A DNA stretch of 37,676 bases from a virus. Position 1 is the first letter of the stretch; every line of letters starts with the position of its first letter. Of this stretch, positions 30,901-37,247 are shown in pieces. The stretch lies in IMG/VR virus record IMGVR_UViG_3300008259_000241, positions 1 through 37,676 of that record, one strand, 5' to 3'. The notes below the pieces were generated by a model. That model saw only the letters and a list, made by a program, of their open reading frames with translations, ran no database searches and was not told the origin of the DNA. Made by a program: the position numbers and the translations under genes.

Positions 30901-33663
30901 ATGGTTGTAAGTATCGACTTCGAGACGCGCAGCGCCGTCGATCTCCGCAAGACGGGCGTCTATAAGTACGCCGCCGACCCATCGACCGACATCTGGTGCA
31001 TGGCTTACAAGGCTCCGTGGTCTGACGACGTGCTGGTATGGCAGCCGGGCGATGAACGGGATACCTATCTCGAAGATTGGATCATGGCGGGCGGGTTGCT
31101 TTCGGCGTGGAATAGTCAGTTCGAACGCACAATCTGGAACGAGATCATGGTCGGCCGCTATCAGTGGCCCCGCACCAACATTAAGCAATGGCGCTGCACG
31201 ATGGCGCAGGCCAGCGCGATGGGGCTGCCTCGCGCACTAGGTCAAGCGGCTGCGGTCCTTGGCGTTGAAGAACAGAAGGACAAGACTGGCGCGGCCCTTA
31301 TGCTCCGGATGGCACGGCCGCGTAAGGTGAACGCTGACGGCAGCTACACATGGTGGGACACGAAGGATAAACTCGATACGCTAGTAGCGTATTGCAAACA
31401 GGATGTTAAAACGGAACTGTCCGTCGCCGAGACACTGCACGCAATGCCTGACGCTGAGCGTCGTCTTTATCAGCTTGACCAGCGCATCAACGACCGAGGC
31501 GTGGCCCTCGACGTTGACCTCGTGCACCGTGTCAAGGCACTGGCTGAGAATGCCCGCGTAGAAATTGATGCGGAGATACAACGCCTCACTAAGGGGCAAG
31601 TCAAAGCCGCAACAAACGCTATGGAACTGACAGCGTGGCTCAACGCGCATGGCATTCAAGCCAAGTCCGTTGACAAGCAGACCGTTGGTCGGCTGCTGTC
31701 CTTTGACCGCATGCACCCCGTGATCCGTGAGGTTCTGAAACTCAGGCAGAACGGAGCCAAGTCCAGCACGGCCAAGTATGATGCGATGCTGCACGCGGTC
31801 AACGCGGACGGACGGATGCGCGGTCTTCTCGTTTATCACGGCGCGGCAACTGGCCGCTGGTCGGGCAAGCTGGTGCAGCCGCAGAACTTCCCACGTCCGC
31901 AAAAGAAACAAGACGAGTTGGATGAAATCATCGCCAAACTTAAAGCGGACGAAGATGTGTCGGCGCATGGGGCCGGAACGGTCCTAGCTTCCGACTTGTT
32001 GCGTTCGATGTTGGTAGCCGACGAAGGCCATCGGCTTATGTTCGCCGACTATTCAGCGATTGAAGCCCGCGTTCTTGCGTGGGTAGCAGGACAGCGCGAT
32101 CTTGTTGAGACGTTCCAAAATGGCGGAGACGTGTACAAAGAAATGGCATCGGCCATCTACAACGTGGATGTGGGGAACGTCACTGACGCACAGCGGCAGG
32201 TTGGTAAGATGGCAATCCTTGGTTGTTTCGAGGAAGATACTCTTGTCTTGACAGAACGAGGATGGCAACCTATTCTGTACCTAACGACACAGGACAGGGT
32301 ATGGGATGGTGAAGAATGGGTGACGCATCAAGGGGTAGTGTATCAGGGGCACAAGGAAGTTCACCGGGTCAATGGGGTCGGTGCGACGCCGGACCACGAA
32401 ATACTGACGGAACATGGGTGGCGGGAGTGGCGAAAGGTCCATACAAACCCTTCCCTGCTGAAGTCGGCGCTGTCTTTGGTGAACTTACCATCCGTGAGTG
32501 GGTTAACCACAAACGCGCATGGCATCCGCGCTGCGAATGCTCTTGCGGGTGGATTGGCGTCATTGATCGACACAATATCCTGCGCGGTAAATCGTCCCGT
32601 TGCAACTATTGCGCGAAGCGTAAGTCTGGCGTTACGCAGAAGAAATATCGCGGCTATGCAGGCATTGTTCCCGATGACTTTCACCGCGAACGGTTACTCA
32701 ACCGCATATCCTCGTGCATTCAACGTTGTGAGAACCCAAGCAACGCCGGATGGAAACACTACGGCGAACGAGGTATCAAGGTATACCCGGAATGGGTACG
32801 AGACCGAAAAGCGTTTCTCTCTTACCTTCTCACACTTGATGGGTGGGATTTACCGCATCTGGAACTGGACCGCATCGACAACAACGCGGGCTATCAGCCG
32901 GGCAATCTCCGCTTTATCACGCGGTCTGAAAATATGTTTAACCGCCGCACAACGGAAACTATGCAGAACGAAATCAACCGTTTGCGTGCGGAAGTCGCAT
33001 GTTTACGACGTGAGTTACGCGGGGCCGAGGAACCGCTTCACGATCCTGACTGACCTTGGCCCTTTGATTGTCCATAATTGCGGCTATGGCATGGGGGGCA
33101 AACGCTTCGCCGAACAGTGCGCCAGCATGGGCATAAAGGTAGACGAGAACGAAGCCAAGCGCATCGTGTCCGTTTATCGGGAGAAGAATAATAAGATTGC
33201 GCAATACTGGCGTGATGTTGAACAAGACTTTGTAGAGATGGTGAGGGATGCGGGCCGTGTTGGGTCGGTTCGTCTTCCTCTTCCTAGCGGGCGGTCGCTT
33301 ACTTACCACAGTCCGCGCATCATTCAGCGAGAGACACCTTGGGGGGCTATGCGCGACACAGCCCAAGTCGATACGCTGAATAGTGTGACGCGTCAGTGGG
33401 TATCCCAGATTATCTGGGGTGGCCTATTGACGGAGAACGTGGTGCAAGCAACCGCCCGCGACATGATGGCCACGGCCATGATGGCGTTGGAAGTCAAGGG
33501 CTACAATGTCATCCTGTCCGTCCACGATGAAATCATCTGCGAAGTGCCAGATAATTTTGGTTCGCTTGACGAAATGATTGACATTATGACACGAGTTCCG
33601 GCATGGGCGGAAGGCTGCCCGATAAATGCTGAGGGTAAGGAAGGGAAGAGATACCGCAAATGA
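30901..33663 (+). CDS. Family A DNA polymerase with an intein in motif B, 920 aa precursor
   Basis: The 3'-5' exonuclease has SIDFETR (D6, E8), LSAWNSQFERTIWNE and YCKQDVKTE (about residues 6, 74 and 162). The polymerase domain has motif A FADYSAIEARVLAW (D383), motif B RQVGKMAILG (R432, K436) and motif C SVHDEIICEV (H875, D876). Motif B is interrupted after G441 by a 285-residue intein; the sequence resumes CGYGMGGKRFAEQC. Precise splicing would restore AILGCGYGMGG and leave a 635-residue enzyme, normal for T7-type phage polymerases. Unspliced protein should lack polymerase activity. It overlaps the next gene by ATGA. Confidence 0.92.
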   Translation: MVVSIDFETRSAVDLRKTGVYKYAADPSTDIWCMAYKAPWSDDVLVWQPGDERDTYLEDWIMAGGLLSAWNSQFERTIWNEIMVGRYQWPRTNIKQWRCTMAQASAMGLPRALGQAAAVLGVEEQKDKTGAALMLRMARPRKVNADGSYTWWDTKDKLDTLVAYCKQDVKTELSVAETLHAMPDAERRLYQLDQRINDRGVALDVDLVHRVKALAENARVEIDAEIQRLTKGQVKAATNAMELTAWLNAHGIQAKSVDKQTVGRLLSFDRMHPVIREVLKLRQNGAKSSTAKYDAMLHAVNADGRMRGLLVYHGAATGRWSGKLVQPQNFPRPQKKQDELDEIIAKLKADEDVSAHGAGTVLASDLLRSMLVADEGHRLMFADYSAIEARVLAWVAGQRDLVETFQNGGDVYKEMASAIYNVDVGNVTDAQRQVGKMAILGCFEEDTLVLTERGWQPILYLTTQDRVWDGEEWVTHQGVVYQGHKEVHRVNGVGATPDHEILTEHGWREWRKVHTNPSLLKSALSLVNLPSVSGLTTNAHGIRAANALAGGLASLIDTISCAVNRPVATIARSVSLALRRRNIAAMQALFPMTFTANGYSTAYPRAFNVVRTQATPDGNTTANEVSRYTRNGYETEKRFSLTFSHLMGGIYRIWNWTASTTTRAISRAISALSRGLKICLTAAQRKLCRTKSTVCVRKSHVYDVSYAGPRNRFTILTDLGPLIVHNCGYGMGGKRFAEQCASMGIKVDENEAKRIVSVYREKNNKIAQYWRDVEQDFVEMVRDAGRVGSVRLPLPSGRSLTYHSPRIIQRETPWGAMRDTAQVDTLNSVTRQWVSQIIWGGLLTENVVQATARDMMATAMMALEVKGYNVILSVHDEIICEVPDNFGSLDEMIDIMTRVPAWAEGCPINAEGKEGKRYRK
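32224..33078 (+). mobile_element. Intein within DNA polymerase (codons 442-726)
   Basis: Block A is CFEEDTLVLTERGWQPI, starting with Cys442. Block B is GVGATPDHEILTEHGW with Thr496 and His499. Block F is SHVYDVSYAGPRNRFTIL. Block G is GPLIVHN, ending in Asn726 and followed by Cys727 as the +1 residue. All residues normally needed for class 1 splicing are present. Blocks B and F are separated by about 200 codons with no recognisable in-frame endonuclease; that stretch is instead the coding region of an HNH gene in another frame. The in-frame linker is open but low in similarity to any domain I know. Confidence 0.9.
32427..33053 (+). CDS. HNH homing-type endonuclease inside the intein, different frame, 208 aa
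   Basis: The likely start is GTG at 32427, right after splicing block B; an ATG at 32316 would add 37 low-complexity residues that overlap block B. The N-terminal part VGAVFGELTIREW leads to a zinc-binding motif (CECSCGWIG, CNYCAKRK). The catalytic part is RISSCIQRCENPSNAGWKHY, GERGIKVYPEWVRDRKAFLS, HLELDRIDNNAGYQPGNLRF and ITRSENMFNRR, matching phage HNH proteins. A short coiled-coil tail (EINRLRAEVACLRREL) overlaps splicing block F in the other frame. It is expected to cut intein-free polymerase genes. The frame is +2 relative to the polymerase. Confidence 0.86.
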   Translation: MAKGPYKPFPAEVGAVFGELTIREWVNHKRAWHPRCECSCGWIGVIDRHNILRGKSSRCNYCAKRKSGVTQKKYRGYAGIVPDDFHRERLLNRISSCIQRCENPSNAGWKHYGERGIKVYPEWVRDRKAFLSYLLTLDGWDLPHLELDRIDNNAGYQPGNLRFITRSENMFNRRTTETMQNEINRLRAEVACLRRELRGAEEPLHDPD

Positions 33664-34805
33664 CAGCACACGCAAAGTTTGGCGCGTCCAATGCGAAGCG
33701 CCGCATCAATTGCCCCGGCTCACTCAACGCCGAGGCTCCGTTCCCTAACGAGAGTTCACCTTACGCCGAACTTGGTACGGCTGCGCACGAACTGGGTGAG
33801 TTCTGCTTGGTCAATGGACATGAAGATGCCTTCGCCTTCATTGGCCAAGAGCATAACGGCCACAAGGTTGACGACAACATGGCGCGTGCGGTGCAGGTCT
33901 ACATCGACTACATTCGAGATGTGGCCGCATCGGAACCAAGCATCTGCCGCTATGAGAAACGCTTCAGCCTAGATAAACTTGATCCGCCCATGCCGATGTT
34001 CGGCACGGCCGACTGCATCATCTACGGCAAAGAGAGCGGAACGCTGTACGTCATCGACTATAAGCACGGCCAAGGTGTAGCAGTCGAAGTCGCGGACAAC
34101 GAGCAGCTTAAATATTATGCGCTCGGTGGCATATTAGAGATTGGCGAGAAGGCTCCGGTCAACAAGGTTGTGACGGTTGTCGTGCAGCCACGCGCCATGC
34201 ACCCCGACGGGCCAGTGCGGCAGCACAGCTACAGCCGTGACGACATACTGGACTTCGGCACAGAACTTATTGACGCAGCCTATGCGTCTCTGAAGCCGGA
34301 CGCACCACGCATCTCTGGCGATCACTGCAAGTTCTGCCTTGCGGCGGGGACTTGTTCGGCCCTGCGCAACAACGCCCTTGAAGTCGCACAAGACGAGTTC
34401 GGTACAGTACGAACCGTCAATGACCTAACCCCACAGGAAGTTGCGGACTATCTGCAAAGGGTTCCGCTGATCGAAGAGTGGATTAAATCTTTGCGCCGCC
34501 ATGCCAATAGCTTGTTGGAAACTGGCGGTGGTCTTCCCGGCTACAAGCTGGTTGAGAAACGACCGACCCGCCGCTGGCGTGTTGAAGAAGAGTTTGTGGC
34601 TTGGGCCACAGAAGAAGGTCTCGATGACGACGACATCTACGAAAAGAAGTTGAAGTCGCCACCGCAGATCGAGCGTGTTGTGGGCAAGAAGAACTTGCCC
34701 GCATCGCTCGTCATAGCTGTATCATCCGGCACATCAATGGTCGCTGATACAGATAACCGTCCGGCTGTAGCCTCGTTGGCCGCAGACGATTTCACCGTTG
34801 AATAA
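33660..34805 (+). CDS. DUF2800 family PD-(D/E)XK nuclease-like protein, 381 aa
   Basis: MTAHAKFGASNAKRRINCPG and YAELGTAAHELGEFCLVNG are typical N-terminal signatures. The nuclease core is MPMFGTADCIIYGKESGTLYVIDYKHGQG, with D and D-x-K motifs and then EQLKYYALG. A Cys cluster (HCKFCLAAGTCSALR, with a further Cys missing compared with Cas4-type clusters) follows. RecB/Cas4-like proteins of this kind occur with polymerase and SSB genes in phages and probably act in recombination or end-processing. The start overlaps the polymerase stop (ATGA). Confidence 0.84.
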   Translation: MTAHAKFGASNAKRRINCPGSLNAEAPFPNESSPYAELGTAAHELGEFCLVNGHEDAFAFIGQEHNGHKVDDNMARAVQVYIDYIRDVAASEPSICRYEKRFSLDKLDPPMPMFGTADCIIYGKESGTLYVIDYKHGQGVAVEVADNEQLKYYALGGILEIGEKAPVNKVVTVVVQPRAMHPDGPVRQHSYSRDDILDFGTELIDAAYASLKPDAPRISGDHCKFCLAAGTCSALRNNALEVAQDEFGTVRTVNDLTPQEVADYLQRVPLIEEWIKSLRRHANSLLETGGGLPGYKLVEKRPTRRWRVEEEFVAWATEEGLDDDDIYEKKLKSPPQIERVVGKKNLPASLVIAVSSGTSMVADTDNRPAVASLAADDFTVE

Positions 34806-34815
34806 GGAAACACCG

Positions 34816-35376
34816 ATGTCAAAAGTTATTACACCAGAAGCAATCATCTCTTACCCGCATGTGTTCGAACCACAGACACCTCCGGGTGCAAGTGAGCCAG
34901 TCTATTCTTGCTGCCTTGTATTCCCTGACGGCACTGACATGTCTGAACTCAAGGCGACGGCGGCTGCTGTGGCCAAGGAGAAGTGGGGAGACAAGACTAA
35001 ATCGTTGATGGAAGGCGGCAAAATCCGTATGCCTTTCCGCAACGACGGCGAAGAGAAGGGCTATCCAGAAGGCTCGATCTTCATGAACGTCAAGTCGAAG
35101 CAGGCCCCCGGTGTTGTCAGCAAGTTTGCTGGCGAGAACGGCAAGCCCGCTCCGATTACAGACCCTAAAGAAATCTACCCCGGTGCGAAGGTCCGTGCCT
35201 CGCTGCGCGCTTATGCGTACAGCGTGAACGGCAACAACGGTGTTGCGTTCTCTCTCGGCAATCTTCAGAAGGTGGCGGACGGTCCTCGTATGGATGGCCG
35301 TCTGTCCGCTGCGGACGAGTTCACTGCGACGGAGCGTCCGTCCGCAGACATCTCGGACCTTGACGATTTGCTTTAA
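34816..35376 (+). CDS. DUF2815 family ssDNA-binding-like protein, 186 aa
   Basis: The start at 34816 (MSKVITPEAIISYPHVFEPQ) has AAGGAAAC upstream; the ATG six codons earlier overlaps the previous stop. The family pattern includes SCCLVFPDGTDMSELKATAA, PFRNDGEEKGYPEGSIFMN and YPGAKVRASLRAYAY. It ends in an acidic, hydrophobic tail (ISDLDDLL), as in SSBs that recruit partners. It likely coats single-stranded DNA in replication and recombination. It is the last gene of the rightward block, before a terminator. Confidence 0.84.
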   Translation: MSKVITPEAIISYPHVFEPQTPPGASEPVYSCCLVFPDGTDMSELKATAAAVAKEKWGDKTKSLMEGGKIRMPFRNDGEEKGYPEGSIFMNVKSKQAPGVVSKFAGENGKPAPITDPKEIYPGAKVRASLRAYAYSVNGNNGVAFSLGNLQKVADGPRMDGRLSAADEFTATERPSADISDLDDLL

Positions 35377-35389
35377 GTGAAATGGAAGG

Positions 35390-35421
35390 GCCGGGGAGTT
35401 TGGAAGTCGCCCCGGCTTTTC
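35390..35421 (+). terminator. Rho-independent terminator after the SSB-like gene
   Basis: GCCGGGG (35390-35396) and CCCCGGC (35410-35416) pair perfectly around a 13-base loop and are followed by TTTT. It ends the rightward polymerase block. Confidence 0.8.
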
Positions 35422-35425
35422 TAGG

Positions 35426-35485
35426 TAGGGGCGGTAGGTCTGGGCTTTCCCGGGCGCTTACTTCGGTACGTTAAAGCCGCCCCTA
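35426..35485 (-). terminator. Possible terminator of the leftward late block
   Basis: TAGGGGCGG (35426-35434) and CCGCCCCTA (35477-35485) form a perfect 9-bp stem around 42 bases. It directly follows the helicase stop. With the adjacent hairpin it separates the convergent blocks. No clear T-run follows on the minus strand. Confidence 0.5.
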
Positions 35486-36769
35486 TCAATCTAAAGCCTC
35501 AGAGATCATCTGGGCTTTCTTGGCTAAGGTCTTAGCTACAATCTCATCAACAGAATTGACAAGGCCGAACGTCCGCACGATGACGGGCTTTGTCTGGCCG
35601 ATACGGTGGCAACGCTTAGCCGCCTGTGCGTTCACTGCCGGAACCCAATCCATCTCGACAAACGCCACCTGATTGGCTGCTGTCAGCGTAATCGCCGTAG
35701 AACATGCGGTGATCTGGCCGATGAATACCCGCACCTTCGGGTCAGTCTGGAAGTCATCAATCGCCGCTTGACGGTCGGCTGTCGGCATACCGCCTGCGAC
35801 TACCACAGGGTTGAAGTCTTTCAGCCTATCGTAAAGCGTCTGTATCGCGTCGGTGTGGTAGGCGAAGATGACAATCTTATCGTAAGCATCATCGGCCAAT
35901 TCGCCCGCTATCTGTGTGGCGATGGGCGCTGCCTTGGCCACACCTGTCAGCCGTCTTAATGACGCGATATGCGGGGCGATGCTCTCGATCTCCGCAGCCA
36001 AGTCCTGATTAGTAAGCGAATGCGCAAGGATCATATCGACGGCTTCAGCTTGGCGTGGGTCGTCGATGTGTTTCCTGTCGCTCCAGTTATCTATCTCGAC
36101 GGGTGCGGTCTGCCACCAGATAGGCGGCAAATCTTTCAGCACAACTTCGCCCTTGCGGCGCAGCATGATTGCTTTCAGCACGGTCTTAAACTCTTCCATG
36201 CGTTCGGCCTTGTTGCCAAGGATTTGAAGACCGAACTGGCCGCTCCATGTCTTGCAGAAATATGTTGTGTATTCGGCGAAGTTCAGAGGGTACTGCCAAA
36301 TCGCTTTGAGATGCGTCCAGAAATCGCTGACATTATTAGGGATGGGAGTACCGCTAAGAAGCCAAACACGATCAGCAAACTTAACAAGACCATCACCGCG
36401 ACAGTACTGACCATATAGATACTTTGTGCGCTTAGCAGTACGGTTCTTAAGATAATGCGCTTCATCCAGAACAAGAACGTCTGGCTCAAACTTGGCAATC
36501 TCATTGCGGACCTCCTTCGACTGTGTGATTTTATCATAGCTGAAGACTTTGACTTCGCGCTCGACGGTTCCCCATCGCTCGAACTCACGCCGCCAGTTGA
36601 TCTTGGCAATGGCCGGGCAGATCACGACGACCTTTGTTAAGCCGAGTACATCACAGGCTGCTATCACTTGAAGTGTTTTGCCAAGGCCCTGCTCATCGGC
36701 AAGGAACGCGGCCGGGTTCTTACAGAGAAAGTCTGCGCCGACCTTTTGGTAATCGAATAGATGGTTCAT
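35486..36769 (-). CDS. SNF2/DEAD-type superfamily 2 helicase, 427 aa
   Basis: I choose the ATG at 36769 (MNHLFDYQKVGADFLCKNPA) because GAGAGGGAAGAC precedes it; a longer start would lie within the RuvC gene without such a site. Walker A is DEQGLGKTLQ (K31), Walker B is VLVLDEAHYLKN, and motif III is VWLLSGTPIPNN. The second domain has KIVIFAYHTDAIQTLYDRL, QVAFVEMDWVPAVNAQAAKR and CHRIGQTKPV (motif VI). This is the minimal SNF2-like helicase common in phages, often for replication or recombination. It overlaps RuvC by 50 bases. Confidence 0.88.
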   Translation of the reverse strand: MNHLFDYQKVGADFLCKNPAAFLADEQGLGKTLQVIAACDVLGLTKVVVICPAIAKINWRREFERWGTVEREVKVFSYDKITQSKEVRNEIAKFEPDVLVLDEAHYLKNRTAKRTKYLYGQYCRGDGLVKFADRVWLLSGTPIPNNVSDFWTHLKAIWQYPLNFAEYTTYFCKTWSGQFGLQILGNKAERMEEFKTVLKAIMLRRKGEVVLKDLPPIWWQTAPVEIDNWSDRKHIDDPRQAEAVDMILAHSLTNQDLAAEIESIAPHIASLRRLTGVAKAAPIATQIAGELADDAYDKIVIFAYHTDAIQTLYDRLKDFNPVVVAGGMPTADRQAAIDDFQTDPKVRVFIGQITACSTAITLTAANQVAFVEMDWVPAVNAQAAKRCHRIGQTKPVIVRTFGLVNSVDEIVAKTLAKKAQMISEALD

Positions 36770-37247
36770 CGTCTTCCCTCTCGGCGGCGTAGCAGGCGAG
36801 AAGCGCAGCTTCGGCCCGGCCGTCATCCTTTTTGCGTGCGAAGAGATGAGCGTAATCCGGGAACAACTCTTGTGCCCGCTGACGACTGCCGTCCTTCCCT
36901 CCGAACGTGCGCATAGACTTAATCCAAGTCGCAGGCGGTATCAACTCAAAAGATACAGACAGGCCAGCAAGGACACCTTCGACGATACCACCGGCCCTGC
37001 CAAACGCGTAGGTCGAGGAAACCCCTTGCCCCGGCATAGCCCACGTTTTCTCAAGTAGAGCCTTTTCGTTTCCGGTTACATGTGGGCGAAGCGCATCGGC
37101 CAGCATGTGTGCGTCAACCTGATTGACGACACGCGGCCCGCGCTTGACCTTTAGAGTAGGCATGTCGATGATGACAAGTTCTCGGCTATCCTTATCCAGA
37201 ATAGCTATTGCTCCGAACGCGCCCGGATCAAGTCCCCATATTTTCAT
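36720..37247 (-). CDS. RuvC-like Holliday junction resolvase, 175 aa
   Basis: MKIWGLDPGAFGAIAILDKD has the first catalytic Asp (D7). ALLEKTWAMPGQGVSSTYAF carries the catalytic Glu, and KKDDGRAEAALLACYA the C-terminal Asp/Glu set. The RNase H-type fold is complete at this length. Phage RuvC-like enzymes resolve branched DNA before packaging. It lies at the end of the late block with the SNF2 helicase, so late recombination-intermediate clearing is plausible. Confidence 0.86.
   Translation of the reverse strand: MKIWGLDPGAFGAIAILDKDSRELVIIDMPTLKVKRGPRVVNQVDAHMLADALRPHVTGNEKALLEKTWAMPGQGVSSTYAFGRAGGIVEGVLAGLSVSFELIPPATWIKSMRTFGGKDGSRQRAQELFPDYAHLFARKKDDGRAEAALLACYAAEREDDEPSIRLPKGRRRLSL

Follow-up and report, generated by a model that had tools for sequence, protein, structure and literature searches.

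The textbook intein combines a splicing domain with an in-frame endonuclease, which raises the question of what kind of element occupies a viral DNA polymerase gene in which the intein frame encodes no endonuclease and an HNH endonuclease gene runs through the same nucleotides in another frame. The gene lies in a 37,676-nucleotide stretch of viral DNA (IMG/VR record IMGVR_UViG_3300008259_000241), hereafter the window, and its features are listed in Table 1. Our analysis of the locus and its relatives suggests that the element is very probably a mobile mini-intein in a phage polymerase, overprinted by a separately translated HNH homing endonuclease.

Table 1. Features of the interrupted polymerase gene, in window coordinates.
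Feature	Position	Strand	Remarks
Family A DNA polymerase ORF (polA)	30901..33663	+	920 aa; reads through the intein
Polymerase N-extein	30901..32223	+	C-terminal end VGKMAILG
Intein	32224..33078	+	Cys1 to Asn285, 285 aa
N-terminal splicing half	32224..32493	+	Block A CFEEDTLVLT and block B TPDH; confident Hint part of the model
Block B	32386-32397	+	TPDH
Intein-frame linker	32494..32982	+	Stop-free, unconserved, predicted disordered
C-terminal splicing half	32983..33078	+	Block F YDV at 33004; block G VHN ending at 33078
Polymerase C-extein	33079..33660	+	First residue Cys+1 (CGYGMGG)
HNH endonuclease ORF	32316..33053	+	+2 frame, 245 aa; stop TGA 33051-33053
Conserved HNH core	32454..33050	+	199 aa; basis of alignment and tree
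Putative zinc ligands, HNH frame	32538..32612	+	Cys-x-Cys (32538-32546), Cys-x-x-Cys (32601-32612)
HNH motif region	32760..32906	+	YGERGI (32760-32777), DR (32868-32873), N (32904-32906)
Favoured HNH start codon	32316..32318	+	ATG across GAA-TGG; alternatives GTG 32418 and GTG 32427

The polymerase product matched DNA_pol_A in three stretches (Pfam, E 2e-31), as expected for the polymerase A family named in a preliminary description of this DNA. The intein begins at Cys442 of the product (TGT at 32224) and ends with the His-Asn pair at 33073-33078, followed by Cys+1 at 33079; the limits (32224-33078) and motifs (Cys442, TPDH, YDV and HN/C) first proposed for it were right. It carries the intein signature of an N-terminal Cys/Ser, block B TxxH, C-terminal His-Asn and C/S/T at +1, and residues C1, T55, H58, H284 and N285 were invariant across 24 aligned members. 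AlphaFold modelled both splicing halves confidently (mostly pLDDT above 84) and the middle as disordered, and the best PDB matches were the DnaB, gp41-1 and RecA mini-inteins (probability 0.97-1.00), the disorder of the linker limiting the E-values to 1e-3 to 1e-1. Together the two ends are predicted to adopt the Hint fold, in agreement with the complete splicing domain that had been proposed, all blocks of which are present. The unconserved, disordered linker likewise upheld the claim that the polymerase frame lacks an endonuclease. Downstream of polA lie genes for an exonuclease, a Gp2.5-like SSB/annealing protein, a helicase and a Holliday junction resolvase (33660-37247), and a similar replication module also surrounds the intein in Jerseyvirus and Dhillonvirus. 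In the 89% relative L018 the intein C-terminus (about 717-745) has IVQTC in place of IVHNC, with loss of the terminal His-Asn, which may reflect a copy that no longer splices or an error of assembly.

The +2 frame ORF carries CxC...CxxC cysteines, YGERGI and LDRIDNNAGYQPGN. Searched separately, its product matched PHROG 374 (HNH endonuclease family, E 1.2e-33), and a Pfam search returned no match to any HNH model. Four cysteines, YGxRG, DR and N were among the invariant columns of 26 aligned HNHs. The AlphaFold model of the product was confident (mean pLDDT 86), and we did not equate its fold with a solved nuclease as a PDB search with the model gave only non-significant matches, PacI among them. 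The ORF is fully nested within the intein, and its stop lies 1-70 nt upstream of the intein end in all 30 of the elements listed. The preliminary description had placed it between blocks B and F; the frame, motifs and zinc cysteines were confirmed, but the ORF overlaps block B at its 5' side and block F at its 3' side, so that both splicing halves are partly double-coded.

Across the whole HNH ORF the intein frame of the window contains no stop codon, as had been noted. We measured how unusual this is by holding the HNH protein fixed, shuffling synonymous codons and counting stops in the intein frame and in the third frame. The shuffles predicted a mean of 4.1 intein-frame stops (P(0) = 0.0014), whilst the third frame contained 14 stops against 12 expected. 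Relatives behaved similarly, with none observed where 1.4-6.4 intein-frame stops were expected for each clade 1 element (all except L036), 1.9-12.2 for clade 2 and 9-15 for Javan-type elements, and with clade 1 third-frame stops agreeing with expectation; as elements within a clade are non-independent, per-element P values are not to be multiplied. Overall, the intein frame was stop-free over the HNH gene in all but one (L036) of several dozen relatives from cultured phages, viral contigs and prophages. The exception, a Salmonella-phage-type contig (L036, 3900-4100), has an upstream indel joining the N-splicing half to the HNH frame and a single intein-frame stop, and was the sole frame-broken element seen. 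Free-standing HNH homologues averaged 6.1 stops in the clade 1 search and 9.0 and 12.9 in the clade 2 search. Since identity among many embedded HNHs has fallen to 40-50% and their free-standing homologues do not keep this frame open, the open intein frame must be maintained. Chance openness and codon bias were ruled out by the synonymous shuffling, the third-frame control and the free-standing homologues, and a sequencing frameshift by dozens of independently sequenced relatives with the identical arrangement.

The two frames differ in the constraint that they appear to be under. Between the window and its more diverged near pairs (L016-L019), omega was 0.13-0.26 for the HNH frame, and for the intein frame in the overlap, at HNH-synonymous changes, it was 0.58-1.07. 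These ratios, which supply the two-frame dN/dS comparison proposed at the outset, indicate that the HNH frame is under purifying selection and that the intein frame is near-neutral within the overlap. With one glycine excepted, the invariant columns of the 24 inteins all fell in the splicing ends, whose blocks are invariant despite double coding.

To define the distribution of the arrangement, relatives were collected by tblastn with either frame and from viral contigs and bacterial genomes. The identical layout was found by tblastn in EBPR siphovirus 2, Sodalis SO-1, Vibrio 97.13, Pseudomonas MR14 and Dhillonvirus and Jerseyvirus phages, and the intein-frame query matched 145 Salmonella phage records. 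In APSE-1, Caulobacter RLK and Streptococcus Javan255 the HNH lies in the other alternative frame (+1), and thus two relative frames exist. Viral contigs and bacterial genomes yielded dozens more elements, including prophage-like loci in Erwinia, Clostridium, Gardnerella and others, and from reading the translations the host genes were polA, at several sites, and SNF2-type helicases. Several candidates were set aside: long HNH ORFs that might have represented in-frame inteins (L052, L256, L278 and others) were upstream read-through or proteins with additional domains, and the nuclease of Klebsiella phage L343 was free-standing. In Moraxella phage Mcat21 (L010, 2731-3663), a short mini-intein in a thyX-like gene is followed by unrelated sequence, the host gene being possibly broken or rearranged.

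In the HNH tree, window-type sequences formed one supported clade, elements of the other frame in polA and helicases fell into one or two further clades, and the Javan type stood apart, though on a long branch; the embedded rel+1 HNHs formed one clade (SH-aLRT 96), and the closest outgroups of the embedded HNHs were free-standing genes. The layout thus occurs in at least two HNH clades with opposite relative frames, and the separation of these clades suggests that it likely arose at least twice. Phage helicase genes (in L188, MR14 and Vibrio phages) harbour a different intein, in which a DUF559 (Vsr-like) nuclease lies out of frame, with 0 intein-frame stops against 4-12 expected, so that the architecture is not tied to one nuclease family. 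Two genomes hold more than one such element: a single contig (L034/L182) has one polA with two inteins, their out-of-frame HNHs drawn from both clades in opposite relative frames, and Pseudomonas phage MR14 (L004 and L338) has an out-of-frame HNH intein in polA and an out-of-frame DUF559 intein in a helicase.

The insertion also bears the marks of mobility. Among 80 close polA homologues examined, 70 of the 77 that were scorable had the empty site VGKMAILG|CGYGMGG, and two of the remaining seven had a variant uninterrupted site, which fits an element inserted precisely and in frame at a host site that is conserved and has empty alleles. The intein of the window was 96-99% identical to those of L015/L016, and the adjacent polA 77-88%; an intein far more alike than its flanks is as would be expected of a mobile element. 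The DNA itself therefore shows two open frames, with the HNH gene wholly inside the intein and both products under selection, as well as empty sites and indications of horizontal transfer.

From these observations we infer splicing, HNH translation, cleavage and homing as follows. The polymerase mRNA would be translated straight through in the extein frame, and the Hint domain formed from both intein ends would excise the intein and restore the polymerase, the stretch separating the splicing halves acting merely as a linker, probably unstructured, that contains no stop. Translation started separately within the intein, in the +2 frame, would give a free-standing HNH nuclease, which would presumably cleave polA genes lacking the intein at VGKMAILG|CGYGMGG or close by, and repair after the cut would copy the whole element into the empty gene. 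The most likely HNH start is ATG 32316. In 31 clade 1 relatives, the stretch of HNH frame that begins one codon ahead of the conserved Trp and runs as far as the HNH core contained 0 stops where the intein protein would lead one to expect 62, and the base that creates ATG across xxA-TGG was A in 27 of the 31 against 15 expected (the remaining four lack it); both results point to this codon. Selection for a Shine-Dalgarno sequence was rejected, as anti-SD pairing upstream of ATG 32316 was not stronger than the intein protein itself imposes (mean z -0.31, non-significant). This result, the four relatives lacking the A, and the want of a Pfam HNH match or a significant PDB match for the HNH product weigh against the proposed reading.

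Other explanations were weighed against overprinting by a separately translated nuclease. It is unlikely that a once in-frame HNH domain was shifted out of frame by two compensating ancestral indels to become a separate nuclease. Such a history accounts for the location between the splicing halves, but no in-frame HNH homologue was found among the fetched loci, the arrangement occurs in two different relative frames and with two nuclease families, and the nearest outgroups are free-standing genes. Production of the HNH by programmed frameshifting, as a fusion to the N-terminal part of the polymerase or intein rather than by internal initiation, is quite unlikely. The absence of a strong ribosome-binding site and an HNH frame that stays open upstream over the splicing half in 31 of 31 relatives, as a frameshift product needs, are compatible with it; against this, we rejected the mechanism because no conserved slippery heptamer was found, clades 1 and 2 would require opposite shifts, and in APSE-1 and RLK the clade 2 HNH frame is interrupted by stops a short way before an NTG start.

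It is very unlikely that only the intein functions, the HNH ORF being an accident or a remnant in decay and the open frame a by-product of codon bias. The middle of an intein requires no particular sequence, as this explanation assumes, but the purifying selection on the HNH frame, the conserved nuclease residues and a stop avoidance that exceeds codon usage and leaves the third frame unaffected all argue for a maintained gene. Phage group I introns typically carry HNH genes, and Sodalis phage SO-1 gp38/gp39 (L002, 1502-4690) has been annotated with a type I self-splicing intron. An origin of the element as a group I or other self-splicing RNA intron is nevertheless hardly credible: Rfam intron models gave 0 matches in the window region and ten relatives carrying the element, on which ground it was rejected, and the intein blocks are conserved in the protein frame, which has a predicted Hint fold and is open throughout. 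This evidence supports an intein rather than an intron in SO-1. The findings that the preliminary description had named as fatal to its proposal (homologues with an in-frame endonuclease, a sequencing frameshift or related HNH frames riddled with stops) were not encountered, and the stop-free intein frame whose conservation in homologues it proposed to test was seen in all relatives but L036.

Several known systems share parts of this arrangement. Canonical inteins, such as the SPbeta bnrdE intein with its LAGLIDADG nuclease, similarly combine self-splicing with a homing endonuclease between blocks B and F. Their endonuclease is in the frame of the splicing domain and covalently part of the intein, unlike the +2 frame HNH of the polA element. 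The SPbeta intein, whose other frames are full of stops, was rejected as an older precedent since it is an ordinary in-frame LAGLIDADG intein. The polA mini-intein of Ruminococcus phage NatCom_23091 has the same insertion site and splicing blocks and also lacks an in-frame endonuclease; unlike the window intein, it has no HNH in any frame. Phage group I introns also interrupt a host gene with an element bearing a separate HNH gene, but are removed as RNA by a ribozyme, which Rfam did not find in the polA element. Split inteins with a free-standing endonuclease gene between their halves, reportedly described by Dassa et al. in 2009, likewise pair a splicing domain with a separately translated endonuclease; in those systems the host gene is broken into two ORFs, whereas polA here remains one ORF via dual coding.

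The closest published precedent is the ShiLan domain, a hidden HNH in a mycobacteriophage DNA methylase (Arsenault, Gosselin, Gogarten 2025, PMC11855218). Like the polA element, it is a complete HNH gene in another frame within a stop-free in-frame insertion of a phage gene, with a disjunct distribution; it has no splicing domain and is thought to remain in the host protein (PMC11855218), whereas the polA HNH is enclosed by a full Hint intein. A literature search for out-of-frame inteins, whose coverage lay outside doi 10.1101/2025.01.02.630785 (non-canonical actinobacteriophage inteins) and Gorbalenya 1998, returned the ShiLan papers only. The suggestion that the arrangement is a distinct class of mobile element stands as regards a recurrent architecture, but not as one monophyletic class, given several likely origins, two nuclease families and the related out-of-frame element without a splicing domain already published (PMC11855218).

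The nuclease gene is thus concealed by its overlap with the intein. It occurs both in prophages and in cultured phages (Salmonella Jerseyvirus, E. coli Dhillonvirus and APSE-1), and annotation has mostly overlooked it; of the ORFs annotated at the HNH position, SO-1 gp39 is called an HNH endonuclease and APSE-1 P46 is given no function. The layout accounts for inteins of ~285-300 aa with a meaningless middle, indicates that an intein can carry a homing gene with no need for a fused fold, points to splicing domains tolerant of long unrelated linkers, and offers a natural example of extended dual coding on one strand in which the two constraints can be told apart. Its presence in cultured phages makes the role of the hidden gene in homing directly testable. 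Since many unrelated phages share this double arrangement, a single stretch of DNA apparently supplies both a self-removing piece and a means of spreading it. On balance, we favour the view that overprinting may be a general, repeatedly evolved way for phage inteins to gain mobility. On this view, the linker of a mini-intein can receive a free-standing nuclease gene of one fold or another (HNH or DUF559/Vsr-like), in whichever of the two alternative frames, after which intein and nuclease would spread together as a stable unit read in two frames. If so, splicing would be decoupled from nuclease folding and each product would be free to evolve separately.
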